64,000 nucleotides of DNA from Nitratireductor basaltis. Lineage in GTDB: Bacteria > Pseudomonadota > Alphaproteobacteria > Rhizobiales > Rhizobiaceae. The notes under the pieces were generated by a model. It searched no databases, was not told where the DNA came from, and saw only the letters and a program-made list of their open reading frames with translations. A program made the position numbers and the translations under genes. Positions within the stretch are counted from its first letter, which is position 1, and every line of letters begins with the position of its first letter. This document shows positions 10,981-26,970 of the stretch, piece after piece. The stretch is taken from the NCBI RefSeq assembly GCF_000733725.1, contig NZ_JMQM01000001.1:434001-498000 (forward strand), read 5' to 3'.

Positions 10981-11697
10981 TCAGCGATCCGATTTCACGT
11001 CGGATGCGAAGCGCGCAGCATTTTCTTTCGCGAAGGCGCTGGCATCGGCTTTCTCATCCCAAAAGTGCGGGTTGGCCTTGGGAATGGTCAGCGCCTTCTG
11101 CACGGCAGGGCGGGCGTCGATGCGGTCGAACCAGCCTTTGAGATTATCGAGACCTTCGACCGACACTCGTGCCCAGACATAAGCGCGCGCCCAGGGATAG
11201 ATCATCATGTCTGCGATCGTGTATTGGCCTGCAGCGATCCATTCGCGACCCTCCAGGTGCGTGTCGAGCACTTCGAGCAAGCGCCTGCTTTCATCGACAT
11301 AGCGCTTGATCGAGAAGGGTTCTTCGTGCCCGTTGGGCGCGGCAATGTGCTGGAAATACATCGCCTGTCCCATCATCGGGCCAATATGGCCGACCTGGAA
11401 AAACAGCCATTGCATGACCTCGGAGCGACCAACCGGATCGGAGGGCAAGAACTGGCCGTATTTTTCTGCCAGATGCCACAGGATCGCGCCGGACTCGAAT
11501 ATCGGTCGGCCTTCGAACCGGTCCACGATGGTCGGGATCTTCCCGTTCGGATTGAGCTTCAGATAGTCAGGCGCTTTTTGCTCCTGATTTGCGAAGTCGA
11601 CGAAGGTCAGATCGTAAGGAACACCTGCTTCTTCGAGAAAGATGACCGGCTTGTATCCGTTCATCGTAGCGGCGGTATAGAGATGGATGTCAGCCAT
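10981..11697 (-). CDS. Glutathione S-transferase family protein
   Basis: 238 residues. The N-terminal thioredoxin-like domain begins IHLYTAATMNGYKPVIFLEE and contains LNPNGKIPTIVD and the glutathione-binding FESGAILWHLAE; an all-helical C-terminal domain follows. The pattern resembles GstA/YfcG-like (Nu/beta) enzymes. It probably conjugates or reduces electrophiles with glutathione in the cytoplasm. Its ATG at 11697 overlaps the end of the upstream cupin gene by eight bases, and the pair lies behind an mdaB-like quinone reductase gene. The order fits an electrophile/quinone defence operon under the divergent HxlR regulator. Confidence 0.88.
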   Translation of the reverse strand: MADIHLYTAATMNGYKPVIFLEEAGVPYDLTFVDFANQEQKAPDYLKLNPNGKIPTIVDRFEGRPIFESGAILWHLAEKYGQFLPSDPVGRSEVMQWLFFQVGHIGPMMGQAMYFQHIAAPNGHEEPFSIKRYVDESRRLLEVLDTHLEGREWIAAGQYTIADMMIYPWARAYVWARVSVEGLDNLKGWFDRIDARPAVQKALTIPKANPHFWDEKADASAFAKENAARFASDVKSDR

Positions 11698-12049
11698 TGT
11701 CTGCTCCTTCAATATCGTTGTCGAGGCGCTCGAAGATGATTGCTTCGATCTCGTTTTCACCGGCATTGGTCACTTGATGAGTCCACGGCCCGTTGTGCAT
11801 GACCTCGCCATCGGCCACTTCCTTCTCGACCGACGTCCCGTCCTCGAGCCGGATCGAAAGCGTCCCGCCGCGGATGAAGTAAACGATCTCTTCGGGGAGA
11901 CGGTGGGGTGCGTCGGTAGCGCCTGGCGGCATGACCATGCGCGCCAAGCGCGATACGCCGGTATTGACGAGTTCGGCATACATGTCTGGCGATGCCTGAT
12001 CTGCCAGCGGCGCGATGGTGTCGGGTTCGGTGAGAGCTTGCTTGGTCAT
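11690..12049 (-). CDS. Small cupin-domain protein
   Basis: 119 residues forming a single cupin: a PPGATDAPHRLPEEIVYFIRGG first motif and a VADGEVMHNGPWTHQVTNAG second motif. The usual metal-binding His/Glu positions are only partly evident (His, Glu, Glu, then His). The exact activity cannot be assigned; small cupins often bind metals and act on small oxidised molecules. The ATG at 12049 was chosen because the upstream in-frame extension runs into the neighbouring gene and lacks cupin character. It sits between mdaB-like and GST genes on the same strand. Confidence 0.75.
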   Translation of the reverse strand: MTKQALTEPDTIAPLADQASPDMYAELVNTGVSRLARMVMPPGATDAPHRLPEEIVYFIRGGTLSIRLEDGTSVEKEVADGEVMHNGPWTHQVTNAGENEIEAIIFERLDNDIEGADNG

Positions 12050-13934: not shown

Positions 13935-15110
13935 TTACACAAAGCAAAAACGTACCAAAGATGCTGTAGTCAACACAGCATCGGGGAGCGAGGTGATGCC
14001 AATCCCCGGTTCGCTTCCTATCGCCCAAAATCCGTTATTGATGCGTTCCGGAACCTGGCTGAACCCTGTGCGCAAAATATTCGGATTGAAATCGACCTCC
14101 AGCAGTCCCGAGCCGCCGACGGCTGCCAAGAGATGGGCTGATGCGACTAGACCGATGCCCCCACCCAGGAAATGCGGGCAATAGATTCTGCCGGCCTGGA
14201 CGATGTCCCGGGCTACTTCGTGGCAACCGGTAATACCTCCCCATTTGGCGACGTCCGGCTGCAGAAAGCTATATGAGCCAGAGGCGAGGGCGTTTGCGAA
14301 TTCGCGCTTCCCAGCCATGTTCTCGCCGCCCGCCAAGGGCACACCAAGGGCTGCAAGCTCTGCCCAGTTTTGTGGCGTATCGTCCACCCTTAAGGGCTCT
14401 TCCACCCAGCCGAGCGAAACCGAGTGTGTCGACTGAAGGAATGCTTTGGCTTCCGCGAGTGCCCATGCCTGATTTGCGTCTGCGAAAAGCCGCTCCGTGG
14501 CATATATGGTTTTAGATAGTTCCATGAGGCGGTTCGCGTCATCCGTGCCGAAACCGACCTTCACCTTGAAAGCATCGAAACCCGCTTTCCTGGCCTTTTC
14601 GATCTCAGCTTGCGCCGTACCGATCTGTATGCCGCTCGCATAGATGGGGACATGCTGGTGCGCATTGGCATTTATGGCCTTGGCAAGTGGAAGCCCTGCG
14701 CGTCTTGAGACGAGGTCCCAGGCGGCAATATCAAGCCCGGCAATGGCATGGGCGAAAGGTCCCTGCTCACCACACTGTATTGCGCGCACCTGCGTTTTCG
14801 CATCAAGAGACCAGAACATCTCCTCAGGCGCTTGCCATAGCTGGCCGATTGCGAGATCCGCAATGTCATCCATAAGCAGATTGACGCGGTGCTCGGCTCC
14901 GGCTGCTGGCCAGTTCGCGAAGATCTCACCCCAGCCAAAACAGCCCTGATCATCTTCTATGCGTACGAACACGGCAGGGCGGTCACGCATGATCCCGAAG
15001 GATGTGGTTACCGAGCCGCTTGTTATGGGCGCTCGACATGCCCATGCATCAATGCGCTTGATCGTAAATGCGCTGTCATAGGGGCGTTTGATGATCTGTT
15101 TTTCCATCAT
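13935..15110 (-). CDS. Mandelate racemase / muconate lactonizing enzyme (enolase superfamily) protein
   Basis: 391 residues. An N-terminal capping domain is followed by a TIM-barrel from about residue 135. Active-site features visible are the KxK acid/base pair in FDAFKVKVGFG, metal ligands in FADANQAW, WVEEPL and AGGENMAG, and a His in YCPHFLGGGIGLVAS. Members with a KxK and a late His act on acid sugars, hydroxy acids or amino-acid derivatives by dehydration or epimerisation. D-tartrate dehydratase is one example, but the substrate here cannot be read off. The last ~25 residues (after SEPGIGI) do not look like the usual family end. It is the last gene of the minus-strand catabolic run, 22 bases after the ThDP enzyme. 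Confidence 0.85.
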   Translation of the reverse strand: MMEKQIIKRPYDSAFTIKRIDAWACRAPITSGSVTTSFGIMRDRPAVFVRIEDDQGCFGWGEIFANWPAAGAEHRVNLLMDDIADLAIGQLWQAPEEMFWSLDAKTQVRAIQCGEQGPFAHAIAGLDIAAWDLVSRRAGLPLAKAINANAHQHVPIYASGIQIGTAQAEIEKARKAGFDAFKVKVGFGTDDANRLMELSKTIYATERLFADANQAWALAEAKAFLQSTHSVSLGWVEEPLRVDDTPQNWAELAALGVPLAGGENMAGKREFANALASGSYSFLQPDVAKWGGITGCHEVARDIVQAGRIYCPHFLGGGIGLVASAHLLAAVGGSGLLEVDFNPNILRTGFSQVPERINNGFWAIGSEPGIGITSLPDAVLTTASLVRFCFV

Positions 15111-15132
15111 GTCGAATATTGGTAAGCCCGAA

Positions 15133-16737
15133 CTAGTGTGATGGGCCGGAGGGTGCGGGAAACCCTTCGATCAGGACATTCACGCAAGCCACTTTTCCCG
15201 AATTTACGGCGCGTTCCAATGCTCCGTCGAGCTCGGAGAGTTCCCTCACGAATTCGCCATGCCCACCAAGGGCCGTGGCGACAAGGTCGTAGCGCCCATC
15301 ACTCAGTTCACAGCCGATCAAGCGGTCGGGACCGTAGTCCCGCAACTGGATCTGATGCTCGGCGTTCCAGCGCATGTCATTGCCAATGACGAGAACATAG
15401 GGCGCGCCGACACGCGCTGCCGTTTCGAGCTCGCTGAGATGGAAGCCAGCGGTGCCGTCGCCCATCATGGAGAAGATGGTCGACTGGGGAAACAGTTTGG
15501 CAGCGGCGAGGCCATAGCAGAGGCCCCCGCCGATCGCGCCCGACACACCATTGACCACACGCCGCTTCGCAGTAATGCTCGCCTGTGCCCATTGGCCAAA
15601 TTCGCCGCCATCACTGATGAAGATTGCGTCATCGGCGGCATCGATCCTGCGCTGGACAGCCGCACATAGCTGATCCGGCGTGATAGGCCCGCTGGACTTG
15701 GGCGGCGCGGCGCGGCGCGAGAGCTTGTGGGCCACATCTCCAAGCCATTGGCCAGGCTGATCGCCACCGGTCGCGAACTGGATGAGCGTTTCTGCAGCGT
15801 CCCGCGGGTCAGCATGGAAGTTCATCTTCAACCGCTTGCCGAGATTTAGATGGGCGCGGTCGCGCTCCTTCATGTCCGGTTGGATGCTGATCCAAAGGGT
15901 AGAGGGATTGAACGCACCTGCCTTGCCAAAGCCCAGCGTGAAGTCAACGCGCTTGCCGAGCGTCACGACGAGGTCGGCTTCTTGCAGTATTTCTGCCAAT
16001 GCTCCCAATGACGGATCCTTCAGACCGCGCGGGCTCTCCATGGCGATGACGGGCGCGCAGAGCGCCTTCTGCAATCTTTCCTTGAGGTCGCCGCTGCGCG
16101 TGGCATTCATCACCGGCCCGCAGAGGACGACGGGCTTTTGAGCAGCAGCAATTGCCTGGGCGATCAGGCGAGCATCGCCTTCTCGTAGAGCCATCGTATC
16201 GCGGGCCAGTTCGTGCACGGTCGGTATGCTTGCCTCACCGGCATCGTCCTCGACGACGTCGAAGGGGAGTGCGATGTGAACTGGCCCCGGACGGCCAGAT
16301 GTGGCAGTTCTCACGGCCTTCGCAACGGCAGATCCCAACAGGTCAGCAGAACGTGGCCGCAACGAAAGCTTCGTCAACGGCGCTGTCATCGGCACCTGAT
16401 CCATTTCCTGGAACGCACCACGACCGTCCTGTGAAACCGGGCTGTCGCCCGTGAGAAGGAGTACCGGTGTCTCGGATTCGGAGGCCGTGAAAAGAGGGCC
16501 CAAAGCATTCGCAGCCCCGGCACCCGCCGTTACCATCGCGACACCAATGGTGCCTGTCAGCTGGGCATGGGCTTCGGCCATGTAGACGGCAGCGGCCTCG
16601 TGCCGCGTGTGCACGATCTCGACACCGGCTTCAAAACAGGCATCGTAAACCGGCATTATCTGGTTACCCGACAGGGAATAGATGCGCGTTACTCCCGCTG
16701 CCTTCAGTGCCTCAACAAGCAGATCCGCTCCGCGCAT
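15133..16737 (-). CDS. Thiamine-diphosphate-dependent enzyme, acetolactate-synthase-like
   Basis: 534 residues with the three-domain ThDP layout. The N-terminal PYR domain has the catalytic Glu (HTRHEAAAVYMAEA, near residue 48), a central domain lies at about 190-330, and the C-terminal PP domain has MMGDGTAGFHLSELETAAR as the ThDP/Mg motif. A Glu at the activating position argues against glyoxylate carboligase, which lacks it. It could cleave or decarboxylate a 2-oxo acid or join 2-oxo acids; the substrate is unknown. The ATG at 16737 was chosen because the longer frame has 65 extra residues that run through the intergenic space. It lies within the fumarase/SDH-like operon. Confidence 0.85.
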   Translation of the reverse strand: MRGADLLVEALKAAGVTRIYSLSGNQIMPVYDACFEAGVEIVHTRHEAAAVYMAEAHAQLTGTIGVAMVTAGAGAANALGPLFTASESETPVLLLTGDSPVSQDGRGAFQEMDQVPMTAPLTKLSLRPRSADLLGSAVAKAVRTATSGRPGPVHIALPFDVVEDDAGEASIPTVHELARDTMALREGDARLIAQAIAAAQKPVVLCGPVMNATRSGDLKERLQKALCAPVIAMESPRGLKDPSLGALAEILQEADLVVTLGKRVDFTLGFGKAGAFNPSTLWISIQPDMKERDRAHLNLGKRLKMNFHADPRDAAETLIQFATGGDQPGQWLGDVAHKLSRRAAPPKSSGPITPDQLCAAVQRRIDAADDAIFISDGGEFGQWAQASITAKRRVVNGVSGAIGGGLCYGLAAAKLFPQSTIFSMMGDGTAGFHLSELETAARVGAPYVLVIGNDMRWNAEHQIQLRDYGPDRLIGCELSDGRYDLVATALGGHGEFVRELSELDGALERAVNSGKVACVNVLIEGFPAPSGPSH

Positions 16738-16778
16738 GAATTCCCCTCCGATTGCGTGTCTTTTTTTGCTGCCTGCGT

Positions 16779-17099
16779 TCAAGGCACCGTGAAAAACGGT
16801 GCCGGGATCAGGATCTTGTTTTCGATATTGTCCACGAGAGGACGCATCTGAACCGCGTAGGCCTGCCATTCCGGTGAGGCCTGTAGCGCCTTTCGGCGTT
16901 CCCATCGGTCGTCCATGCTGGAGTATCCCCACATATGAACAATCTGGTTCAGCGGGCCGATATCGGTGAAATAGTATCCGACCATCTTGCCCAATATGCG
17001 CTTTTGAACTTCCATTCCTTCCTCTTCATAGAGCTTCAGGAATTTCTGCACGTTCCCGTTCTTGAGCGTGTAGGTGCGCTGGTCCACGAATTTCGTCAT
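16779..17099 (-). CDS. NIPSNAP-family protein
   Basis: 106 residues. The sequence VDQRTYTLKNGNVQKFLKLYEEEGMEVQ, HMWGYSSMDDRWERRKALQASPEW and a C-terminal NKILIPAPF fit the ferredoxin-like NIPSNAP fold. Bacterial members often sit in catabolic operons, but their biochemical role is not established. The ATG at 17099 is preferred; a TTG at 17123 overlapping the upstream stop would add eight residues. It is encoded between the hydratase beta subunit and the ThDP enzyme on the same strand. Confidence 0.82.
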   Translation of the reverse strand: MTKFVDQRTYTLKNGNVQKFLKLYEEEGMEVQKRILGKMVGYYFTDIGPLNQIVHMWGYSSMDDRWERRKALQASPEWQAYAVQMRPLVDNIENKILIPAPFFTVP

Positions 17100-17119
17100 G
17101 AAGTTTTCCACTCGCCCGC

Positions 17120-17785
17120 TCAAATCAGCTCATCGCTGCGGTCGTCGGTCTCGCCAAAGCGCTTGAGAACAGAAGGTTTCAGCCCCTCGTAGAGACGGCC
17201 GATATTTTCCGACGTGCGGGCGTTTTCGCGTTCGAACAGGCAGTGGCCTTCGAGATCGGAGGCGACGATGAAAGGCCCCATGCGATTGCATTTTAGCACC
17301 CACATCGCCTGCGCCAGCCCAAGCTCCTCGTGCCAGTGAACGGCTTCCACATTTTCGACCCCACGGCCCAGCAAGGCGCCGGTGCCGTAGCCGACGGTGG
17401 TCAGATAGACCGCACCATTGGGCACGAAATATTCCCTGTAGTCGCGCGAGGTCATTCCGCCCTTGCCGATGATCAGCTTGGCGCCTGTCTTGGCCATCCA
17501 TTCGGGCAGCCATTTCGCAAAGCGAAAGCTCGCCGTGGCGGTCACCGCACCCATATTGTAGGTGCCATCGGAGCGAATGCTGGCGGCGGGCGAGCAATGG
17601 AAATTCGCCGCGCTGTGGGCAGGCAGTTCCATCGGAATATTCGCCTTCTGCTCCAGCGCGCGCATATAGACGCCTTCGCGGGCTGTGTACATCAACCCGT
17701 CAAGATAAACGACGTCGCCCAGCTTCAATGACGCGATGTCTTCAGCCGAAGGTGTGGTCGAAAGGCGGATTTCGCGCGGTTTCAT
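17120..17785 (-). CDS. Class I fumarase / L-tartrate dehydratase-like beta subunit
   Basis: 221 residues. The beta (C-terminal) domain of two-subunit class I hydro-lyases is recognisable from LKLGDVVYLDGLMYTAREGVY, the SIRSDGTYNMGAVTATAS region, KTGAKLIIGKGGM and NGAVYLTTVGYGTGALLGRGV. With the alpha subunit it would form an [4Fe-4S] enzyme adding or removing water on fumarate, mesaconate, tartrate or a related diacid. The start overlaps the end of the alpha gene by ATGA, implying coupled translation and a 1:1 complex. Confidence 0.9.
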   Translation of the reverse strand: MKPREIRLSTTPSAEDIASLKLGDVVYLDGLMYTAREGVYMRALEQKANIPMELPAHSAANFHCSPAASIRSDGTYNMGAVTATASFRFAKWLPEWMAKTGAKLIIGKGGMTSRDYREYFVPNGAVYLTTVGYGTGALLGRGVENVEAVHWHEELGLAQAMWVLKCNRMGPFIVASDLEGHCLFERENARTSENIGRLYEGLKPSVLKRFGETDDRSDELI

Positions 17786-18738
17786 TCGGCGGCCTCCATC
17801 ATTGGCTCCCATTCGACCGTCTCGCGCCGCTGGTAGGGTGTGAACCAGTCGGGGTCAGTTCGATATTCAACACGACCATCCGCGTGTATGCGGGCTACCG
17901 CGCGCCTGGAGGACAGGCAGAACGCGTGCACACTCATCTGCATGCCGCCGGTGTGGCAGTAGCCGACCTCGATATGCGTATCGATCACCATGTTCTTGCC
18001 GACGAATCCCATTGCACCCATGCCGATGGAATTGCCCAGTTCCTTGAACTCCTCCTCAAGGGCGGCGATGCGCGGATCGGAATTGCGGCTTCCGACAACA
18101 CGCAGACAGGCGGCACGCTTGCCCAGCACCATGCAGGTGTCCTTGCAGCCGCCAAGGCCAATCCCGATGATGGCTGGCTGACAGGCGAGGCCACGTTTGC
18201 CGAAGGCGACCAGGCAATCGAGATAGAAGCGCTTGATACCCTCGATTCCGTCCGAGGGGAAAAGCATGCGGTAGTCGGTGCCGAAGAGACCGCCCTTGTG
18301 AACGGTGATCAGGTCGATCCATTCCCCACCCGGCTCATAGCCATATTCGATTTCGGGGGCGCCAATTCCCACATTGTTGTTGTGGTCGGTTCGCCATAGC
18401 GGGTGAACTCGGTTCGGCCGCAGCGGCACACCATTGGTGCTGTTGGCGGTAGCGCGGCGAAGGGCTGCCTCCAGCGCGACGGGGCCTCCTTCGACCTGGG
18501 TCTCGTTTCCCATTTTCACATACCAGCGCGGCGTTCCGGTATCGCCACACATGGCTCTACGGTCCTCCTTCGCCGCTTCGTAGTTCTCCAGCATCGCCTG
18601 AAGAACGAAAGCGGACAGGTCGCCATCTTCCGTGCTGGCTGCTCCCTTGAGGCCCTCGAGATAATCTTCGGGGATCTCGATGGCAGCCTTGTCCATTAGG
18701 GTTTCAGCCGTGGACTGGATGAGGTCGATCGGTATCAT
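17782..18738 (-). CDS. Class I fumarase / L-tartrate dehydratase-like alpha subunit, [4Fe-4S]
   Basis: 318 residues, the size of the alpha subunit in two-subunit class I fumarases and TtdA. The three cluster-ligand Cys are visible: one in RAMCGDTGTPRWYV (near residue 64) and two in GIGLGGCKDTCMVLGKRA (near residues 203 and 207). Also present are NVGIGAPEIEYGYEP and the GSRNSDPRIAALEEE end of the domain. Substrate choice among fumarate, mesaconate, L-tartrate and others cannot be told from motifs. Its start codon overlaps the stop of the flavoprotein gene, linking it to the dehydrogenase complex. Confidence 0.9.
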   Translation of the reverse strand: MIPIDLIQSTAETLMDKAAIEIPEDYLEGLKGAASTEDGDLSAFVLQAMLENYEAAKEDRRAMCGDTGTPRWYVKMGNETQVEGGPVALEAALRRATANSTNGVPLRPNRVHPLWRTDHNNNVGIGAPEIEYGYEPGGEWIDLITVHKGGLFGTDYRMLFPSDGIEGIKRFYLDCLVAFGKRGLACQPAIIGIGLGGCKDTCMVLGKRAACLRVVGSRNSDPRIAALEEEFKELGNSIGMGAMGFVGKNMVIDTHIEVGYCHTGGMQMSVHAFCLSSRRAVARIHADGRVEYRTDPDWFTPYQRRETVEWEPMMEAAE

Positions 18739-20498
18739 GCTGAGGCCACCAATGTTTCAGGTTCATCTTCGGACAGGACAGTCTGGCCGGGCTTGACGAT
18801 GGTGAAACGGACTTGCTCGCGCTGCACCTCGACATCTCCGCCTTTCATGGCCGCGACCGTGAAATAGGATTCGTCGAGATTGCCTTCGTCCGGGAAGTCT
18901 TCGCGATAATGCGCGCCCCGGGAATTTTCTCGGGACAGTGCCGCCTTGGTGATCACTTCCGATATCTCAGTCAGCGATGCCACGTTCAGCCAGTCGTGCC
19001 AGGTGAGATTGAAAGCGAGGTTGGAGGAGTCGACGCCAGTCTCCGCGAGTTCTTCGCGGATTGTTTCCAGTCGACCGAGCCCGCGCTTCATGCCGGTCGC
19101 GGTACGAATGACGCCAACATCCTCCCACATCATTTCCTGAAGCTGGTTGCGGATATCCTGAACCTTGCCGGGCTTCTTGGCGAAGGGACGTTGTGCGCGT
19201 TCTATCTCGGCGGCCAGTATGTCTTCATCCGGTTCGCGCAAGGCGGCCATGCGACGAATATCGGAACCCATTGTTTCGCCTGCGACACCGCCGAAGACGG
19301 TCGAATTGGCAACGCCGTTGCCGCCGAGGCGGTTAGATCCGTGGGCGCCGCCCGCGTCTTCGCCTGCAACATAGAGGCCTTCGATCATGGTCCGCGTATC
19401 GGGATCAACGATTACGCCGCCCATGAAATAGTGAGCGGTCGGTACAACCTCGACGAGCCCGCCGGCAAGATCGAAGCCGCAATCAGCGCAGCGCTTGACC
19501 ATCCCCGAAAACTTCCGGCGCACCAGATCGGGACCCAGATGCTTCATCGAAATATACATGCCCACCTGGGCGGGGTCGTTGTTCTTGCGCATTTCGGCAT
19601 AGATACCGCGGCTGACAACGTCGCGCGTGGCACGCTCACCGCGCTGGTCATAGTCGAACATGAACCGTTTGCCATGTGCGTTCAGGAGCTGACCGCCTGC
19701 TCCGCGCAGGCCTTCTTCCAGAACGGTGCCGGTCATGCGCGTATGTTCACCTGCGAGCAGGCCGGTGGGGTGAAACTGCACCATCTCCATGTCGCGTAGC
19801 GGCAGGCCGAGGCGAAGCGCCATGGCCAGACCATCCATGGTCTTGTCGCCAGATGGCGTATGATACTTATACATCGTGGGACCGCCGCCGGTGCCCATCA
19901 TGACGGTCTTGGCGCGAACGAAGCGGAACGTGCCGGTGCGCATGTCGATGAAGAGAACGCCGGATATTGCACTCCCATCACGGCTTGGAACCAAGCCGAT
20001 GGCGCGATGTTCCTCCAGCCTTTCGATCGGTCGGGAGAGCACCTGTTCCATGAGCCGGTTGATGATTTCGATGCCGGTCAAATCCCCCTTGTGGACCGTG
20101 CGATCCGCGGTCTGACCGGCGAAAGCCTTGTGATGCAGGCTGCCATCGGGCTCGCGGTCGAAGAAGCAACCGATCTCGTTCTCCAGCTCGCGCACGCGCT
20201 CGACCGCGAGTTGGCACAGTTTCCAGGCCATGTCCTGATCCGGCAGCCACTTGCCGCCGATGATGGTGTCCATGAAATGGCGCTCGACGCTGTCACCATG
20301 GCCGAGAGCGACGTTGTATCCGCCCTGGACCATGCGCGTGCAGCCGCATTTGCCGAGTAGTCCCTTCACTGCGATGGAGATCCTGGTGCCTTCGGGAGCG
20401 GACTGTTGGGCGTGTAGTGCGGCGAACAGACCAGCACCGCCCGAGCCCAGGATGAGGATGTCCGTATCGTGTCTTTCGATATCCACTTTCAGGGGCAT
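18735..20498 (-). CDS. Succinate dehydrogenase / fumarate reductase-like flavoprotein subunit
   Basis: 587 residues. FAD-binding GSGGAGLFAALHAQQ lies near residue 18. Catalytic features present are FHPTG, TGTVLEEGLRGAGGQLLN, the Arg in GERATRDVVSRGI, and PTAHYFMGGV with its active-site His; GEDAGGAHGSNRLGGNGVA closes the FAD site. The place where SdhA/FrdA proteins carry the His that covalently binds FAD (SHTVxAxGG) reads GCTRMVQGG here, so that His appears replaced by Cys53. Non-covalent FAD or an altered redox potential would follow. The ATG at 20498 gives the normal N-terminus; a 65-residue upstream extension was rejected. The gene lies between the anchor genes and the class I hydratase, coupled to the latter by ATGA. 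Confidence 0.9.
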   Translation of the reverse strand: MPLKVDIERHDTDILILGSGGAGLFAALHAQQSAPEGTRISIAVKGLLGKCGCTRMVQGGYNVALGHGDSVERHFMDTIIGGKWLPDQDMAWKLCQLAVERVRELENEIGCFFDREPDGSLHHKAFAGQTADRTVHKGDLTGIEIINRLMEQVLSRPIERLEEHRAIGLVPSRDGSAISGVLFIDMRTGTFRFVRAKTVMMGTGGGPTMYKYHTPSGDKTMDGLAMALRLGLPLRDMEMVQFHPTGLLAGEHTRMTGTVLEEGLRGAGGQLLNAHGKRFMFDYDQRGERATRDVVSRGIYAEMRKNNDPAQVGMYISMKHLGPDLVRRKFSGMVKRCADCGFDLAGGLVEVVPTAHYFMGGVIVDPDTRTMIEGLYVAGEDAGGAHGSNRLGGNGVANSTVFGGVAGETMGSDIRRMAALREPDEDILAAEIERAQRPFAKKPGKVQDIRNQLQEMMWEDVGVIRTATGMKRGLGRLETIREELAETGVDSSNLAFNLTWHDWLNVASLTEISEVITKAALSRENSRGAHYREDFPDEGNLDESYFTVAAMKGGDVEVQREQVRFTIVKPGQTVLSEDEPETLVASA

Positions 20499-20500
20499 GG

Positions 20501-20839
20501 TTACACCGCGTTCAGAAAAAATGCGCCGGAGACGAGGAAGGCACCAGCAATGCTGGCTGCCGCCAATGTCTTGTGGCGGCTTGGCCAGGGGAGGAATTCG
20601 AGGGCCAGCAGCCGCAATCCACCGAAGAAGTGCACGGCCAGCAGAAATACCAGCCCGAACTCCGCAAATTTCACCAGCGGATGATCCGTCCATAGGGCAA
20701 ACTGGTCAAAACTTTCGGGGTTTGTCAGAACGAGGGACAACATCCAGAAATGCACAGGCAGGAAGAATGCCAACCCGATGCCAGAAAGCCGGTGCAACAA
20801 GAACGCGAACCAGAGCGGATGATTGCGATATCTGCTCAT
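20501..20839 (-). CDS. Succinate dehydrogenase-like membrane anchor subunit (cytochrome b, first type)
   Basis: 112 residues with three membrane helices. The motif LLHRLSGIGLAFFLPVHFW near residue 17 is like the SdhC region next to quinone and heme, and a later VHFFGGLRLL supplies another His. It should anchor the catalytic subunits and pass electrons to or from quinone. It begins at ATG 20839, overlapping the stop of the companion anchor gene (20836). Confidence 0.83.
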   Translation of the reverse strand: MSRYRNHPLWFAFLLHRLSGIGLAFFLPVHFWMLSLVLTNPESFDQFALWTDHPLVKFAEFGLVFLLAVHFFGGLRLLALEFLPWPSRHKTLAAASIAGAFLVSGAFFLNAV

Positions 20840-21171
20840 GGCGCCACCGTGACGGCTATGACCGCGGATGCACCCAGCAGGAGAAACAGGAAGAAGGCGG
20901 CTGTACCGACCAGACACAAAGCAAGGCCGCGCAGGCCAGTTATCTCGCTCAGGACAACCCGCACACCGATAGCGGCATGCACTGACACTGCGGCGACAAA
21001 CATGCCGTAAAACACGAACCAGAACAGCGAACCTTGGGTGCGTCCAAGGATTTCCGCTGCACTCAGGCCACCCTGTATCGCATAGATCATCACCGCGATG
21101 TGGGTGATGACGAATGGCACCATGATCATGGCGCTGATGCGCTGCGCTAGATAGAGGCGAAGATCAAGCAT
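20836..21171 (-). CDS. Succinate dehydrogenase-like membrane anchor subunit (second type)
   Basis: 111 residues, three membrane helices. AQRISAMIMVPFVITHIAVM contains a Ser-rich first helix and a His suited to heme b ligation; VHAAIGVRVVL supplies a second. It pairs with the next gene to form the membrane part of the complex. The ATG at 21171 overlaps the end of the iron-sulfur subunit gene (stop at 21164) by eight bases. A start seven residues upstream is possible but lies deeper in that gene. Confidence 0.82.
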   Translation of the reverse strand: MLDLRLYLAQRISAMIMVPFVITHIAVMIYAIQGGLSAAEILGRTQGSLFWFVFYGMFVAAVSVHAAIGVRVVLSEITGLRGLALCLVGTAAFFLFLLLGASAVIAVTVAP

Positions 21172-21901
21172 CGCGAGCCCTCTTGAACGCATTTCGCGCG
21201 GTAAGGCGCTTCAGATTTGCAATCGCGCCCATCGGGTCGAGGCCATTGGGACAGTGGAATGTGCAGCTGCCCATGGAATGACAGTTGTGGCAGCCACCAC
21301 CTTGGGAGACAGCTTCTAGAACGCCTTCGCGATTGGCGTGCTTTTCATCGTTCACGATCGTCCAGGCGCGCTGCAACGCAGCCGGACCGAGATAGTCGGG
21401 ATTGGCACTGACCGTGTCACAAGCAGAGTAGCAGACCGAGCAGTTGATGCATTCAATGCCGGCATTTGCGGCGCTGCGCTCTTTGCCATCCGGCTTGACC
21501 TGGGCGATAGGCTCGTGCCTTGAGGCGCTGGGCTGATGTCGACCGCCCGCCTTCACCCATTTGTCGAAGAACGGCGCCATGTCGGCAGCAAGGTCCTTGA
21601 TGACCGGCAGATTGCGCAAAGGTGCGATCGTGACCTTGCGGGTCTTGCCGAGTACCTTCTTGACATGCGTGCGGCAGGTCCAACGCGGAGCACCATTGAC
21701 CATCATCGCGCAAGACCCGCACATGCCGACGCGGCATGCGAAACGGTAGGTCAGCGTCGGATCGGCATTTTGCTGGATCCAGGACACCACGTCGAGCACC
21801 GTCTGGCTTTCATATTGAGGCACCTGGAAGGTCTGGTAATTGCCTCCATCCGCATCGCCCCGCCAGACTGATATCTCGAGATATTCCTGCTTCTCGGACA
21901 C
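21164..21901 (-). CDS. Succinate dehydrogenase / fumarate reductase-like iron-sulfur subunit
   Basis: 245 residues. The N-terminal [2Fe-2S] domain has FACRVGMCGSCAMMVNG followed by a fourth Cys in RWTCRT. The C-terminal part has ECINCSVCYSAC and GGGCHNCHSMGSCTFHCP for the [4Fe-4S] and [3Fe-4S] centres. It passes electrons between the flavoprotein and the quinone-reactive anchors. It is the first gene of the minus-strand run: iron-sulfur, two anchors, flavoprotein, hydratase alpha and beta, NIPSNAP, ThDP enzyme, enolase-superfamily enzyme. Housekeeping sdh order is normally C-D-A-B, so this is a separate, specialised locus. Confidence 0.9.
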   Translation of the reverse strand: MSEKQEYLEISVWRGDADGGNYQTFQVPQYESQTVLDVVSWIQQNADPTLTYRFACRVGMCGSCAMMVNGAPRWTCRTHVKKVLGKTRKVTIAPLRNLPVIKDLAADMAPFFDKWVKAGGRHQPSASRHEPIAQVKPDGKERSAANAGIECINCSVCYSACDTVSANPDYLGPAALQRAWTIVNDEKHANREGVLEAVSQGGGCHNCHSMGSCTFHCPNGLDPMGAIANLKRLTARNAFKRARDA

Positions 21902-22027: not shown

Positions 22028-22056
22028 AAAAAGGCGGCTACGCATTCGTAGCCGCC
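22028..22056 (-). terminator. Intrinsic terminator after tctA
   Basis: A perfect ten-base stem, GGCGGCTACG (22033-22042) with CGTAGCCGCC (22047-22056), and a four-base loop. On the minus strand it is followed by TTTTT. It ends the tctCBA transcript and means the SDH-like operon downstream needs its own promoter in 21902-22027. Confidence 0.85.
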
Positions 22057-22095
22057 CTGTCAGTAAACCCTTGTCGCAGCTTTGGTTTTCGCCCC

Positions 22096-23619
22096 TCAGC
22101 TCTCGTTCTGCGTCGCGAGTTCGGGCTGTTTCAACGCCGGTTTTGGCTTGGACATTCCCGTTTTCAGGATCGCAAAGACGGTAATTGCTGTCAGCCCCCA
22201 GAAGAACCATGTTATCGGCCCGCGCATGAGGATGGTGGGATTGCCACCCGACATCAGCATCGCCTGCCGGAAATTGTCTTCCAGGAGGGGCCCAAGGATG
22301 AAGGCGATGAGGAAGGGTGGGGCTGGCACGTCGAGGCGCATCATCAGATAGCCGACCCAACCCATGACAAGCATGACACCAACATCAAACACATTGTTGT
22401 TGACGGCAAAGACACCGTAGATGCTGAGAATGAGCACTGTGGGTATCAGGATGCGGCGTGGAATGTCTGCGACATATTTGAAGCCGCGGATGGCCGCAGA
22501 ACCGATGAACAGCAAGAGCACGGAACTGACGATCAGACCGATGAAAAGGCCGTAGATCAGGTCGACATTAATGACGAACATCATCGGACCCGGTTGCAGT
22601 CCGTGGACCATGAAGGCGCCGATGATGATTGCGGTAATCACGTCGCCGGGCACGCCGAGTGCCAATAGCGGAATCAGGGTCGCGCCTGCCACGCCATTGT
22701 TCCCAGCCTCGGCCGCTGCAACGCCTTCGACCTCGCCCTTGCCGAAATTCTCCTTGTTCTTCGACTTGCGGCGCGCCTCCGAGTAGGAAAGGAAGGCGGC
22801 CGGGGCAGCGCCGATCCCGGGAATCGACCCCAGAAACACGCCGATGAAACTTCCGCGAATGATCGAGCGGAAAGACTTCTTGTAATCGGCGAAGGTGACC
22901 TTGTTCTTGCCCAGGCTGCGGGTCTTGCCTAGATGCCCGGTCGGATGCCAGGCCATGGCCAGCACTTCCGGTATGGCAAACAGACCGATCAGTACCGCAA
23001 TGAAGTTCAGGCCGCCCATCATGTTGGGATCACCGAAGGTGAAGCGGTTCGTCCCGTAGATCAGATCCAGCCCCACCGTTGCGAAAAGCAGACCGAGCAG
23101 AGCGGAAAGCGCACCGCGCAGCAGGCTGTTGCCCGAAACGCCGGCTATGATCGTCAGTGAGAAAAGGATCAGGGTGAAGAATTCCGGCGGACCAAAGTTC
23201 AGGGCGAATGAGGCGAGCCAACCTGCAAACAGGATTAGGGAAAGATTGGATACCAGATCGGCCGTACAGGACGCCCACAGCGCCATGCCGAGAGCACGTC
23301 CAGCCTCGCCCCGTTCTGCCATGGGATGACCGTCCATGACGGTGGCAGATGAGGCCGGCGTTCCCGGTGTCTTGATCAGGATGGCCGGAATGGAGCCGCC
23401 GAAAATCCCGCCCTTATAAACGCCCAGCAGAAGCAAAATGCCGGTCACCGGCTGCAAGGTGAAGGTGAAGGGGAGGGTCAGTGCCACCGCCATCGTGGCC
23501 GACATGCCGGGGATGGCCCCGGCTACAACACCAATGGCCACGCCCACTGCGAGCGCAAGGAACACCTCGAAATTGGAAACAAGTGAAAGGCCTGCAAGCA
23601 GGCTGTCGACAAAGCTCAT
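22096..23619 (-). CDS. tctA: Tripartite tricarboxylate transporter large permease, TctA family
   Basis: 507 residues, about 11-12 membrane helices. Signatures include GVAIGVVAGAIPGMSATMAV near residue 28, IFGGSIPAILIKTPGTPASS near residue 72, and a second inverted-repeat copy GVFLGSIPGIGAAPAAFLSY in the middle. This is the main transport channel for a di- or tricarboxylate, driven by an ion gradient. It overlaps the tctB gene (start 23619, tctB stop 23616). Being next to the SDH-like and fumarase-like operon, it probably imports that pathway's substrate. Confidence 0.93.
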   Translation of the reverse strand: MSFVDSLLAGLSLVSNFEVFLALAVGVAIGVVAGAIPGMSATMAVALTLPFTFTLQPVTGILLLLGVYKGGIFGGSIPAILIKTPGTPASSATVMDGHPMAERGEAGRALGMALWASCTADLVSNLSLILFAGWLASFALNFGPPEFFTLILFSLTIIAGVSGNSLLRGALSALLGLLFATVGLDLIYGTNRFTFGDPNMMGGLNFIAVLIGLFAIPEVLAMAWHPTGHLGKTRSLGKNKVTFADYKKSFRSIIRGSFIGVFLGSIPGIGAAPAAFLSYSEARRKSKNKENFGKGEVEGVAAAEAGNNGVAGATLIPLLALGVPGDVITAIIIGAFMVHGLQPGPMMFVINVDLIYGLFIGLIVSSVLLLFIGSAAIRGFKYVADIPRRILIPTVLILSIYGVFAVNNNVFDVGVMLVMGWVGYLMMRLDVPAPPFLIAFILGPLLEDNFRQAMLMSGGNPTILMRGPITWFFWGLTAITVFAILKTGMSKPKPALKQPELATQNES

Positions 23620-24161: not shown

Positions 24162-25139
24162 TCAGCCTTCGACGCGCATGCCCAGCTTGTCGACGAGATT
24201 CTTGAAAGTCTCATACTGGCGCTGAATGAACTCGCCAGCTTCCTGCGGAGACATCAGGTCGATGATCGAACCGGCGGATGTCAAAGTCTTGCGGAAGCGT
24301 TCGTCTGCAATTGCTGCGTTCATCCATTCTGCCCATTTATCTGCCACGTCATCGGGAAGATCCTTGGGCCCGGCGATGCCGGTCCAGCCGACAAGCTCGT
24401 TCAGGCTGGGCTTGCCAAGTTCGGAGGCGGTCGGAGCATCGAAGCCATCCAACCGTTCCTCTGAAGTTACGAGGATTGGCTTTAGCTGCTTGTTGCTGAC
24501 CAGATTGGACAATGTGGAAGAGTTGGTGCAGATAAACGTCACGGTGCCGTTGAGAACGGCGGTTGCTGCTTCGCCGCCGCCTTTCTGAGGGATGTGGGTC
24601 ACCGTCTTGTGCGGGTCCTTCACGCCAAACTCATCAAGGACCATCACCGCGGCAAGCTGGAGCATCGAGCCGACGCCCGATGAACTGTAGCTGACATTGC
24701 CTTCACCAGCTTTCTTGACCAGATCTTCAACCGAGTTGATGTCTGAATCGGCCTTAACCGCACAGGCCACAGGGTTGATCTCGTAGACCGTCACGAAGCG
24801 AAAGTCGTCGAGGGTGTAGGGCAGGGTTGCCTTCATGGCCGGATTTACAGTGTGCGACCCCACACGGGCAAAAAGCATCGTATAGCCGTCGGGTTTAGCA
24901 TTCTTGACGACCACGCTACCGGTTGCGCCACCGGCGCCAGTCACGTTCGACATGACCAGCGTAGCGTCGGCTTCCTTGCTCAGCGGTTCTGAGAGAGCAC
25001 GGGCCGAAATGTCGGTCGCGCCACCCGCGCCATAGGGAATGATCATATTGATCGGCCGCTCTGGGTAGTCTGCCATGGCACTGCCTGACATCAGGCCAAG
25101 CAATAGCGCGTTCGTGAGAATTGGCAGTCTGAATCTCAT
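24162..25139 (-). CDS. tctC: Tripartite tricarboxylate transporter substrate-binding protein, TctC (Bug) family
   Basis: 325 residues with a signal peptide (MRFRLPILTNALLLGLMSGSAMA, cleavage before DYP). The mature start YPERPINMIIPYGAGGATDISAR is the classical Bug-family signature, followed by NVTGAGGATGS and KPDGYTMLF. Family members bind carboxylates through main-chain and Asp contacts in two loops. It is first in the tctCBA operon and divergent from the LysR gene at 25301. Confidence 0.93.
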   Translation of the reverse strand: MRFRLPILTNALLLGLMSGSAMADYPERPINMIIPYGAGGATDISARALSEPLSKEADATLVMSNVTGAGGATGSVVVKNAKPDGYTMLFARVGSHTVNPAMKATLPYTLDDFRFVTVYEINPVACAVKADSDINSVEDLVKKAGEGNVSYSSSGVGSMLQLAAVMVLDEFGVKDPHKTVTHIPQKGGGEAATAVLNGTVTFICTNSSTLSNLVSNKQLKPILVTSEERLDGFDAPTASELGKPSLNELVGWTGIAGPKDLPDDVADKWAEWMNAAIADERFRKTLTSAGSIIDLMSPQEAGEFIQRQYETFKNLVDKLGMRVEG

Positions 25140-25252
25140 AGTTTTCTCCTCCCGAGAGATTTGTTTGGCCTAATCGACGGCTTCCTCCCAGCCATATCGG
25201 ATCGGCTTGACAATTGTTATGGGAAAGGCATTCTTAAAAAAAGATGGTTTTC

Positions 25253-25269
25253 CTAACAATTTTCGTTAG
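25253..25269. promoter_or_regulatory. Candidate LysR operator between tctC and lysR
   Basis: CTAAC-N7-GTTAG is a perfect dyad of 17 bases with LysR-box geometry (T-N11-A), in the 161-base divergent space 32 bases before the LysR start. Part of it recurs before the SDH-like operon (21975-21992). Confidence 0.55.
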
Positions 25270-25300
25270 AAAAACTGAAATAAGCCTTGGGTGCAACTTC

Positions 25301-26215
25301 ATGTCGATCCGGTCGCTTAGAACTCTTGTTGCCGTGCATGACCACGGTACCTTTAGTGCTGCAGCTGAAGCGGTATTCGTGACATATTCTGCCGTTTCCC
25401 AGCAGATGAAGGCACTCGAGGAAGAGTATCAGATCACGATCTTCGACCGCAGCAAGCGAACGCCGGAACTGACGCCGCTGGGCTTGGCAATGGTCGCGAA
25501 GGCACGCGACATCATCCAAACCTATGACGATTTGGTCCCATCGATCCTGGGGGAGGGGGCGCTGAAAGGGGAGATAACGCTCGCTGCCGTGCCAACGACG
25601 CTAACGGGGCTTGTCCCGCTCGGTATATCGATACTGAAGCGCAACTGCCCTGATCTGCACATCCGGGTGGGGCTGGGGCTGACCACTTCGCTTCTCACGC
25701 AGATCAAGCGGGGGATGCTTGAAGCCGCAATCCTCACCGTGCCCTCGATCGCTCCTGAGGATCTGGTGATTCAGGAGATTGTCACCGAACCACTCGAGCT
25801 TCTGGTCTCCGACCAGCTTTCCGAAGATGATCCCATCGCACTTTTGCGCTCGCAGCCCTTCATTCGCTTCAACCGTGAAGCTGTGGTGGGCGAGATCATA
25901 GAGCGTTGGCTCCAGGCCAAATCGGTCACGGTGAACGAAGCGATGGAATTACAGGGGCTTGATGCCATCACCAGCATGGTCGCAGCAAATCTTGGCGTTT
26001 CCATCTGCCCACGCCGCTGCATTGAGACACAAGCGCCGCCAGGTGTGCGCTCGCTGTCACTGGGGCCTGACGCACCGACACGCCGTCTTTGCCTGGTCAC
26101 ACGGAAGAACAGTGCAAAGCGGCTCGTGATCGACAAGATCCACGAATCGTTTCTGGAAGCGGTCGAAGTGGGTGTCTTCCCACCCAAATTGCATCCGCAA
26201 AGAGTATCGGCATGA
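25301..26215 (+). CDS. LysR-family transcriptional regulator
   Basis: 304 residues. The N-terminal HTH is MSIRSLRTLVAVHDHGTFSAAAEAV...SAVSQQMKALE; the effector domain starts near residue 90 (GEITLAAVPTTL). The ATG at 25301 gives the normal start; a 19-residue upstream extension lacks family similarity. It is divergent from tctCBA, and its stop overlaps the ATG of a TauE/SafE permease gene, so regulator and permease are made together. It is the best candidate regulator of tctCBA, the permease and the SDH-like operon. Confidence 0.9.
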   Translation: MSIRSLRTLVAVHDHGTFSAAAEAVFVTYSAVSQQMKALEEEYQITIFDRSKRTPELTPLGLAMVAKARDIIQTYDDLVPSILGEGALKGEITLAAVPTTLTGLVPLGISILKRNCPDLHIRVGLGLTTSLLTQIKRGMLEAAILTVPSIAPEDLVIQEIVTEPLELLVSDQLSEDDPIALLRSQPFIRFNREAVVGEIIERWLQAKSVTVNEAMELQGLDAITSMVAANLGVSICPRRCIETQAPPGVRSLSLGPDAPTRRLCLVTRKNSAKRLVIDKIHESFLEAVEVGVFPPKLHPQRVSA

Positions 26216-26970
26216 CGGGTGAAATGGCTGCAATGCTTGTTGCCGGAGCTGCTGCCGGCGGGTTTATCAACGGGCTCGCTGGTTTCGGCACGGCACTGTT
26301 CGCACTCGGCTTCTTTCTCGAAGCGATGACAGCGATGCAGGCCGTCTCGCTGGTCGTGATCCTGTCTGTGGTCAGTGGCATACAGGGGGTGGTTCTTGTA
26401 CGTCGCGAGATGATGGCAAACCAGCGGCGCCTGATGCGCTTCCTCCTGCCTGCAATCATCGGCATTCCCATCGGCATCGCCTCACTGGATTATCTTGAGG
26501 CAGGGACGCTGAAGCTGGTCATCGGCTTCTTCCTGGTTCTCTACGGAGGCTTCTTCGCGCTGCGGCGCAATCTGCCGCAAATTGCGGGAGATCGACACAA
26601 GACCGATATGTCCGTCGGGTTCTTGGGCGGTCTGCTTGGAGGGGCGGCATCTCTTTCCGGTGCGCTTCCCACCATGTGGTGCTCCATGCGTCCTTGGCCC
26701 AAGGGAGAAACACGTGCGGTTTTGCAGCCCTATAACGTCGCGGTGCTGATGATCGCGATAATCCTCTTCTGGTTCCGCGGCGCATATACTGTCGAAACGC
26801 TTTATCATCTTGCGGTCGCAGTGCCGGCATCCTTGATAGCTGCGCAGCTGGGCATCACCGTCTTCAAGCGCCTGAACGACGGTCTATTCCGTCGGCTGCT
26901 TGTTGTCATGACCTTCATCGCTGGCACGGTGCTCTTAAGCCGTGAGGCCGTGGCAATGCTGCATTTCTGA
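26212..26970 (+). CDS. TauE/SafE-family membrane permease
   Basis: 252 residues, about eight hydrophobic segments, with the paired repeats typical of the family (AAGGFINGLAGFGTALFALG near residue 14 and FLGGLLGGAASLSGALPTMW near residue 145). Family members export sulfite, sulfoacetate or other organic anions. The ATG overlaps the LysR stop (ATGA). A possible role is release of an inorganic or organic anion produced by the neighbouring pathway; the substrate is not known. Confidence 0.85.
   Translation: MTGEMAAMLVAGAAAGGFINGLAGFGTALFALGFFLEAMTAMQAVSLVVILSVVSGIQGVVLVRREMMANQRRLMRFLLPAIIGIPIGIASLDYLEAGTLKLVIGFFLVLYGGFFALRRNLPQIAGDRHKTDMSVGFLGGLLGGAASLSGALPTMWCSMRPWPKGETRAVLQPYNVAVLMIAIILFWFRGAYTVETLYHLAVAVPASLIAAQLGITVFKRLNDGLFRRLLVVMTFIAGTVLLSREAVAMLHF

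Follow-up and report, generated by a model that had tools for sequence, protein, structure and literature searches.

What acid would be oxidized and then hydrated by the products of a run of nine genes in which a succinate dehydrogenase (SDH)-like complex stands beside a two-subunit, fumarase-type hydratase? The run occupies positions 13935-21901, on the minus strand, of the window, i.e., the whole stretch of 64,000 nucleotides that we analyzed from Nitratireductor basaltis (contig NZ_JMQM01000001.1, positions 434,001 to 498,000). Its first six genes (iron-sulfur subunit, two membrane anchors, flavoprotein, and hydratase alpha and beta), which we call the core, probably encode a 3-sulfopropanoate dehydrogenase related to complex II and a sulfoacrylate hydratase (HydAB), with the substrate, the direction and both reactions predicted from sequence and gene context. 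3-Sulfopropanoate is an isostere of succinate in which a sulfonate replaces one carboxylate and, judged by its residues, the core is not ordinary tricarboxylic acid (TCA) cycle chemistry. If this reading is true, an aerobic step that the organic sulfur cycle still lacks would gain its genes, and a TCA cycle mirrored with sulfonates would have recruited complex II and class I fumarase, possibly together with a new way of breaking the C-S bond.

The complex II relative and the hydratase

The core consists of the following genes, in the order in which they are read:

21164..21901, minus strand: SdhB-like iron-sulfur subunit, GTG start (TIGR00384, 179.5 bits, cut-off 88)
20836..21171, minus strand: SdhD-like anchor, ATG at 21171 (PF01127, 28.3 bits, cut-off 25.8)
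20501..20839, minus strand: SdhC-like cytochrome b anchor, ATG at 20839 (TIGR02970, 65.6 bits, cut-off 52.3)
18735..20498, minus strand: SDH-like flavoprotein, 587 amino acids, the putative catalytic subunit of a 3-sulfopropanoate dehydrogenase (PF00890/PF02910, FAD_binding_2 and Succ_DH_flav_C)
17782..18738, minus strand: HydA, class I Fe-S hydratase alpha, window type (PF05681, Fumerase, E 4e-64)
17120..17785, minus strand: HydB, class I Fe-S hydratase beta, window type (PF05683, Fumerase_C)

Our Pfam assignments and coordinates confirmed that all nine genes of the run lie on one strand, belong to the families first described in the original prediction and have the overlapping ends that it reported. 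Counted from the ATG codons, the iron-sulfur gene overlaps the SdhD-like gene by 8 nucleotides (nt) and the SdhD-like gene overlaps the SdhC-like gene by 4 nt; a gap of 2 nt then precedes the flavoprotein gene, and the flavoprotein/HydA and HydA/HydB overlaps are 4 nt each.

The complex has the make-up of the complex II superfamily, i.e., a flavoprotein, a 2Fe-2S/4Fe-4S dicluster subunit and two Sdh_cyt anchors, with TIGR00384 and TIGR02970 over cut-off, with both anchors over that of PF01127, and with the SdhD-like anchor under that of TIGR02968 (32.6 of 41.8). Alignment of the flavoprotein with 1nek, 2b76 and 7d6v demonstrated that the His/Arg/His/Arg positions of complex II are kept, and their conservation reaches 95% or more both in 73 sequences of clade A and in 33 that are more distant (sequences with stops or below 80% of the length were excluded). 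We take them to be His242, Arg286, His354 and Arg399 of Escherichia coli SdhA, the catalytic and substrate-binding residues. Two other positions differ from complex II: Cys53 aligns with the His that links flavin adenine dinucleotide (FAD) in 1nek and 2b76 (the 7d6v alignment has a gap there), and Glu stands in place of Thr254 of E. coli SdhA, each replacement being shared by 95% or more of the sequences in both clades (106 aligned in total). The replaced His is presumably the covalent FAD link of E. coli SdhA and FrdA, and Thr254 presumably a substrate contact. As read from these alignments, the flavoprotein is complex II-like but fails two succinate dehydrogenase features, and its FAD is possibly cysteinyl-linked rather than histidyl-linked. 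Its group is also set apart, since members share at least 59% identity and the other complex II-type matches listed reach at most 37%.

These features bear on two alternatives. An ordinary second SDH and fumarase, to which the Pfam assignments correspond at family level only, is hardly credible in view of the separate flavoprotein group, the changed FAD-link and substrate-contact residues, the presence of a second flavoprotein match in the same genome and a scattered occurrence (15 of 199 genomes in the window's family). Also very improbable is the reductive direction, in which a fumarate reductase analogue would convert sulfoacrylate, made from sulfolactate by HydAB in reverse, to 3-sulfopropanoate: the Cys in place of the FAD-linking His could mean non-covalent FAD and a reductase, and the best NCBIfam score of the flavoprotein is to the coenzyme M/coenzyme B fumarate reductase subunit TfrA (468 of 718, below cut-off), but the anchors are of the SdhC/SdhD type, uptake systems adjoin, and local sulfite-type genes (see below) imply net release of sulfite.

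HydAB resembles the class I fumarase/TtdAB (FumA) family in being a two-subunit Fe-S hydratase that aligns with 7xky over most of its length, HydA with the fumarate hydratase chain 7xky_A, and in having TTSxR-type and GKGGM motifs. HydA scores over the TIGR00722 cut-off and HydB under that of TIGR00723 (108.4 of 145.15). HydB keeps the Thr and Arg of the TTSxR motif as well as GKGGM, with the adjoining residues altered to VTATASFRF, and the equivalog cut-offs for fumarase and L(+)-tartrate dehydratase were missed (PRK06246, 191.9 of 276; PRK08230, 143.9 of 365; PRK08228, 118.4 of 264; PRK06043, 113.4 of 269). The window type differs from the known family in its VTATASFRF, YTAREGVY and HTGGMQMSV segments, where a variant, HydAB′ (33% and 26-27% identical to the window hydratase in Methylobacterium), is closer to 7xky. 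A further arrangement occurs in L006, where a coenzyme A (CoA)-transferase III gene (PF02515; L006:17271-18431) lies between hydratase alpha and beta, and in L227 and L240, which have 64-68% relatives at the same place.

Distribution of the core and the genes around it

The original prediction expected the gene set to recur beyond this strain, a test set beforehand, and this expectation held. In a search made without selection through the thiamine diphosphate (ThDP)-dependent enzyme of the run, a flavoprotein of at least 59% identity was identified in 32 of the 385 genomes of the class, its own included. The same flavoprotein was found in 11 of 398 genomes of a phylum sample, in 15 of the 199 genomes of the window's family (the two other genomes of the genus were negative), in 21 of 184 genomes of a second family and on 15 plasmid records. 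Our ThDP-based scan, for which we took the best 80 loci of 378 confirmed relatives, recovered core genes in 49 loci, 43 with flavoprotein and hydratase alpha and 6 with the hydratase only; in these loci hydratase alpha is mostly near 90% identity and the flavoprotein near 78%. The core occurs on Alphaproteobacteria chromosomes and plasmids, for example with flavoprotein and hydratase in the Roseovarius loci L041, L059 and L062, and also on some Cupriavidus and Pseudomonas plasmids. The core set is thus conserved far beyond chance but patchy, a pattern suggestive of an accessory catabolic island. An apparently truncated copy is present on Paracoccus pantotrophus DSM 11072 plasmid pPAN3 (L221:14962-19152), in which the matched flavoprotein is without its first third and is followed by genes for a hydratase, a YeiH-type protein and NIPSNAP; the queries there did not cover the iron-sulfur and anchor genes.

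The neighborhoods of the core link it to sulfite. For this analysis we used 75 core loci not chosen through the ThDP enzyme (55 plus 20 from a further set) and, as controls, TctA-centered loci of core-positive genomes, 40 of which were hand-picked among the matches listed and 39 of which remained after L205 was dropped for overlapping the case locus L150. A sulfite-type gene, i.e., one of the TSUP, YeiH or sulfite-dehydrogenase type, was present in 28 of 75 core loci versus 1 of 39 controls (p = 2e-5). TSUP alone accounted for 25 of 75 versus 1 of 39, and YeiH or sulfite-dehydrogenase type alone for 9 of 75 versus 0 of 39 (p = 0.027); a marker of sulfite or of sulfolactate/2,3-dihydroxypropane-1-sulfonate (DHPS) metabolism was found in 17 of 55 core loci versus 1 of 39 controls (p = 4e-4). 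The sulfite-oxidase match of L166 (genome G820), a 55-residue partial, was removed from these counts by a coverage filter. The share with sulfite-type genes was higher in ThDP-chosen loci (41/49) and plasmid loci (10/11). When cores were divided by hydratase, sulfite-type genes lay nearby in 67 of 114 window-type and 6 of 11 HydAB′ cores, and SuyAB-like genes within 10 kb of 5 of 11 HydAB′ cores versus 0 of 114 window-type cores (p = 2e-6).

Recurrent neighbors of the core are TauE/SafE permeases, YeiH-type exporters and molybdenum sulfite-dehydrogenase-type proteins. For example, L116 contains proteins over the SoxC and SorA cut-offs and L117 one over that of SorT, L150 encodes sulfopyruvate decarboxylase subunits over cut-off, and in Sulfitobacter sp. 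THAF37 a 3-sulfinopropanoyl-CoA desulfinase over the NCBIfam cut-off (L113:24745-25917) and the tctA-type gene of the core locus are some 3 kb apart. In Paracoccus versutus the YeiH gene and hydB share 4 nt, and in Pseudomonas sp. MPC6 a gene annotated as a CoA-acylating methylmalonate-semialdehyde dehydrogenase directly follows hydB.

Several loci also contain genes of 3-sulfolactate metabolism. We use the name SuyAB for a short and a long UxaA-family protein beside SlcC/ComC-like and GntR genes, following the arrangement in Paracoccus (PMC12421959, in the part available to us); sulfonate gene names are by homology, and HpsN/O/P-like names are taken from gene arrangement. On Methylobacterium radiotolerans JCM 2831 plasmid pMRAD01 and on a Methylobacterium oryzae plasmid, a single cluster begins with genes for the iron-sulfur subunit, SdhD, SdhC, HydA′, HydB′, the flavoprotein (62%), a ThDP enzyme (44-45%), a substrate-binding protein and, on the opposite strand, TauE. 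It continues with SuyA-like (57%), SuyB-like (77%), carboxylate transporter, SlcC-like (68%), ComC-like (63-65%) and GntR genes, and in M. oryzae there are also SorA-like (72%), cytochrome-c-like and YeiH-like (66%) genes. Partial combinations of the flavoprotein with SuyA/SuyB-, SlcC- and ComC-like genes are present in L134, L143 and L158. With a window-type core, P. versutus plasmid pTAV3 contains, over about 35 kb, the core, NIPSNAP, YeiH and TauE genes, then SlcC/ComC-like, HpsN/O/P-like and SuyAB-like genes, with the SuyA-like start 19 kb from the hydB end and an annotated sulfite oxidase farther on; Paracoccus ferrooxidans pFER3 is alike over the stretch read, which ends before the place of SuyAB.

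The window's own genome contains a separate operon of this kind (G000:C1, about 2214600-2223000; L217:3103-11519), made up of GntR, SuyA-like, SuyB-like, TctC, TctA, TctB, SlcC-like, ComC-like and YeiH-like genes and so with its own Tct transporter (TctC and TctB were read by eye); ComE and Xsc were both without a match over cut-off in this genome. The SuyAB-SlcC-ComC module (PMC12421959, in part) is represented both by homologues clustered with related SDH-like/hydratase genes elsewhere and by this homologous operon, and is not local to the window operon. In our survey of the window's family, SuyB-like or Xsc was present in 12 of the 15 genomes with the flavoprotein and in 58 of the 184 without it (p = 3e-4), the three positives with neither over cut-off being G744, G820 and G930. 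Taken singly, SuyB-like occurred in 8 of 15 versus 32 of 184 (p = 0.003), Xsc in 7 of 15 versus 43 of 184 (p = 0.06; 8 of 15, p = 0.026, counting one match just under cut-off), and ComE in 3 of 15 versus 9 of 184 (p = 0.051). In the second family, where positives only were scored for it, Xsc was present in 13 of the 15 positives lacking SuyB-like. Genes tied to sulfolactate or sulfite metabolism are thus linked to the core both in related loci and at the genome level.

Candidate substrates and routes

In the pathway that we propose, the membrane-bound, presumably quinone-linked complex II relative would oxidize 3-sulfopropanoate to 3-sulfoacrylate, to which the two-subunit Fe-S HydAB would add water in one of two ways. 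By route a, 3-sulfolactate would form and SuyAB encoded elsewhere would cleave it to pyruvate and sulfite; by route b, water would enter at the sulfo-carbon to give an unstable hydroxysulfonate, which would break down into malonate semialdehyde and sulfite. The substrate would be imported by TctCBA, and TauE/SafE would serve as an exporter of sulfite or a carrier of a sulfonate. Should sulfolactate be the compound after the hydratase in the clusters with SuyAB, sulfoacrylate would be the hydratase substrate and 3-sulfopropanoate that of the SDH-like complex.

Published reactions are consistent with the first two steps. Enterococcus gilvus forms 3-sulfopropionate from sulfoquinovose (SQ) or DHPS, and Bilophila wadsworthia can respire it (PMC11489063, like the papers below available in part), by a mechanism that a 2026 review calls unclear (PMC12890257). 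The accessible part of the former paper states that bacterial 3-sulfopropionate degradation had not previously been reported apart from a thesis, a Konstanz thesis according to which Roseovarius nubinhibens breaks down homotaurine by way of 3-sulfopropionate, sulfoacrylate and sulfolactate (PMC11489063). The route in R. nubinhibens ISM comprises the same reactions that we predict, from 3-sulfopropanoate via sulfoacrylate to sulfolactate, with no genes named in the part of the source available (PMC11489063). P. pantotrophus NKNCYSA breaks down homotaurine and sulfolactate (PMC12421959). In the portions accessible of the open-licence literature we found no genes assigned to 3-sulfopropanoate oxidation, and in the open-licence literature no gene assignment for this gene combination, for sulfosuccinate or for NIPSNAP.

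Between the two fates of sulfoacrylate, we lean slightly towards route b for the window-type hydratase, because SuyAB-like genes were never found local to it and sulfite-type genes often were. Route b is also favored by the altered HydAB motifs, by the YeiH and semialdehyde dehydrogenase genes that adjoin hydB, and by L224 and L225, which come from genomes 99-100% complete and have the core with local YeiH-like and TSUP genes, and in which neither SuyB-like nor Xsc was matched at our thresholds (the search did not include ComDE and CuyA). Route a is favored by the thesis route and the Paracoccus plasmid. A bolder form of route b, in which window-type HydAB would be a desulfonating hydratase that needs no sulfo-lyase and is fed by a complex II relative perhaps with cysteinyl-FAD, is tentative and on balance doubtful.

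The original prediction proposed a substituted C4/C5 diacid, naming a sulfo-substituted succinate among the options. The idea that a succinate-like acid is first oxidized and then hydrated is supported; a C4/C5 diacid is less well supported. The context favors 3-sulfopropanoate, with the sulfonate in place of one carboxylate, because the flavoprotein group clusters with SuyAB-, SlcC- and ComC-like and sulfite-type genes. Sulfosuccinate itself, which the complex would oxidize to sulfofumarate for HydAB to hydrate at the sulfo-carbon, giving oxaloacetate and sulfite, would account for the SDH-like enzyme, the hydratase and the local sulfite-type genes with no further enzyme; we consider it quite unlikely, as it leaves unexplained both this clustering and the thesis route cited for 3-sulfopropanoate in the part of PMC11489063 available.

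If the substrate were instead a substituted acid that carries no sulfonate, for example methylsuccinate/mesaconate or a different C4/C5 diacid, the sulfonate neighbors would be coincidental. In L121 and L124 the core is flanked by CoA-transferase-, CitE- (PF03328) and, by eye, MaoC-type genes, an arrangement like that of an itaconate-type operon, and the CoA-transferase III genes within the hydratase pair of L006, L227 and L240 fit such a substrate as well, but MaoC- and CitE-type relatives are present in 2 of 78 clade-A loci each, and sulfite and sulfonate genes are commoner and recur in several forms. We regard this alternative as rather unlikely.

Several observations weigh against the 3-sulfopropanoate reading. 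The itaconate-type arrangement of L121 and L124 is one, and the Cys at the FAD-linking position, if the FAD is non-covalent, argues against a simple succinate-type oxidation. For 47 of the 75 core loci the stretch showed no sulfite-type gene, although some may have been missed at contig ends or by the seed-based detection, and most of the 28 loci with one depend on TSUP permeases, which are not sulfite-specific. SuyAB-like genes are missing within 10 kb of all window-type cores, and in the second family SuyB-like occurs in 6 of 21 positives and 27 of 163 negatives, a difference that falls short of significance (p = 0.22). Loci and genomes are related and the loci unequal in length, so that our p-values are optimistic. 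Several named proteins are under their model cut-offs: the sulfite-dehydrogenase-like proteins of L023 and L052 (179.6 and 160.5 of 600; clade A, family members), the YeiH of L112 (132.9 of 232.6), the pTAV3 sulfite oxidase (259 of 600) and the ComC-like protein (203.9 of 500), and the HpsN-like genes score over the NCBIfam cut-off for histidinol dehydrogenase. Finally, a TauE has been labeled a probable exporter of 3-sulfopropionate (PMC11489063, in part).

Accessory genes, transport and neighbors

The remaining genes of the run and its surroundings are as follows:

13935..15110, minus strand: enolase-superfamily enzyme of the mandelate racemase/muconate lactonizing enzyme (MR/MLE) type, 391 amino acids (PF13378, E 1e-44)
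15133..16737, minus strand: ThDP-dependent enzyme, 534 amino acids, ATG at 16737 (PF02776/PF02775/PF00205)
16779..17099, minus strand: NIPSNAP protein, 106 amino acids (PF07978, E 6e-30)
22031..22058, minus strand: terminator-like hairpin of 12 pairs (8 G-C) between tctA and the iron-sulfur gene (pattern match only)
22096..23619, minus strand: TctA, large permease of the tripartite tricarboxylate transporter (TTT) family, 69% to the TTT permease annotated in L117
23616..24107, minus strand: TctB (position and homology)
24162..25139, minus strand: TctC substrate-binding protein (PF03401, E 4e-35)
25244..26215, plus strand: divergent LysR regulator (PF00126/PF03466)
26212..26970, plus strand: TauE/SafE (TSUP) permease, ATG at 26212, candidate sulfite or sulfonate transporter (PF01925, E 9e-27)

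The three genes after hydB follow at gaps of 20 nt (NIPSNAP), 41 nt (ThDP) and 22 nt (enolase superfamily). The prediction had drawn all three into the pathway, and they do belong to the same run, but they look accessory: the ThDP, NIPSNAP and enolase-superfamily genes are within 10 kb of 22, 6 and 6, respectively, of the 62 window-type cores not ThDP-selected. Among all 114 window-type cores, 43 of them ThDP-selected, an enolase-superfamily gene is within 10 kb of 18 and NIPSNAP of 16, and a LysR relative is that close to 80 and a TSUP gene to 61. The divergent LysR and TauE/SafE genes of the window do not figure in the original prediction.

The closest solved structure to the enolase-superfamily enzyme is 3ddm, a "putative" MR/MLE enzyme, and our guess is a 2-hydroxy-acid racemase or lyase; a sulfolactate racemase or lyase is chemically possible and has no support from distribution. 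For the ThDP enzyme, the closest solved structures are 2-hydroxyacyl-CoA lyase and benzaldehyde lyase; no cut-off was reached among the 25 NCBIfam models listed, and the best scores, to acetolactate synthase and 2-hydroxyacyl-CoA lyase models, are far under cut-off. We rejected an assignment as sulfoacetaldehyde acetyltransferase, Xsc (TIGR03457, 149.4 of 676.4), and one as sulfopyruvate decarboxylase, whose cut-off it fails to reach and for which the window's genome has no match over that of TIGR03846. In 12 loci read of the 31 without core, the ThDP neighbors are mixed. An upstream route from 2-hydroxy- or 2-oxo-4-sulfobutanoate, with an LhgO-/GlcD-like oxidase, a ThDP decarboxylase and succinic semialdehyde dehydrogenase (SSADH), was also rejected, its genes not being enriched: LhgO/GlcD/SSADH-type genes are within 4 kb of the ThDP gene in 5 of the 68 loci with a core and in 4 of the 33 that lack one, compared with 3 of 39 controls, in which the distance was taken around TctA. 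Aldehyde dehydrogenases are likewise not enriched at the core (2 of 55 loci), the controls being higher (7 of 39).

Upstream on the same strand, tctCBA is separated from the iron-sulfur gene by 194 nt that include the terminator-like hairpin, and because of this hairpin tctCBA and the nine-gene run may be two transcription units. TctCBA adjoins the run and is a plausible importer of the substrate, as first suggested, but the transporter type differs between core loci (TTT, tripartite ATP-independent periplasmic (TRAP) and DctA-type), and TctCBA therefore does not define the system.

Farther along the window are an Iso_dh-family dehydrogenase gene (PF00180) at 4912-5985, a large TRAP-type DctM permease gene at 8308-10509 and, about 2.2 kb downstream of the operon, a glutathione S-transferase gene at 10981-11766. 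A glutathione S-transferase family also occurs beside the core in 21 of 78 clade-A loci.

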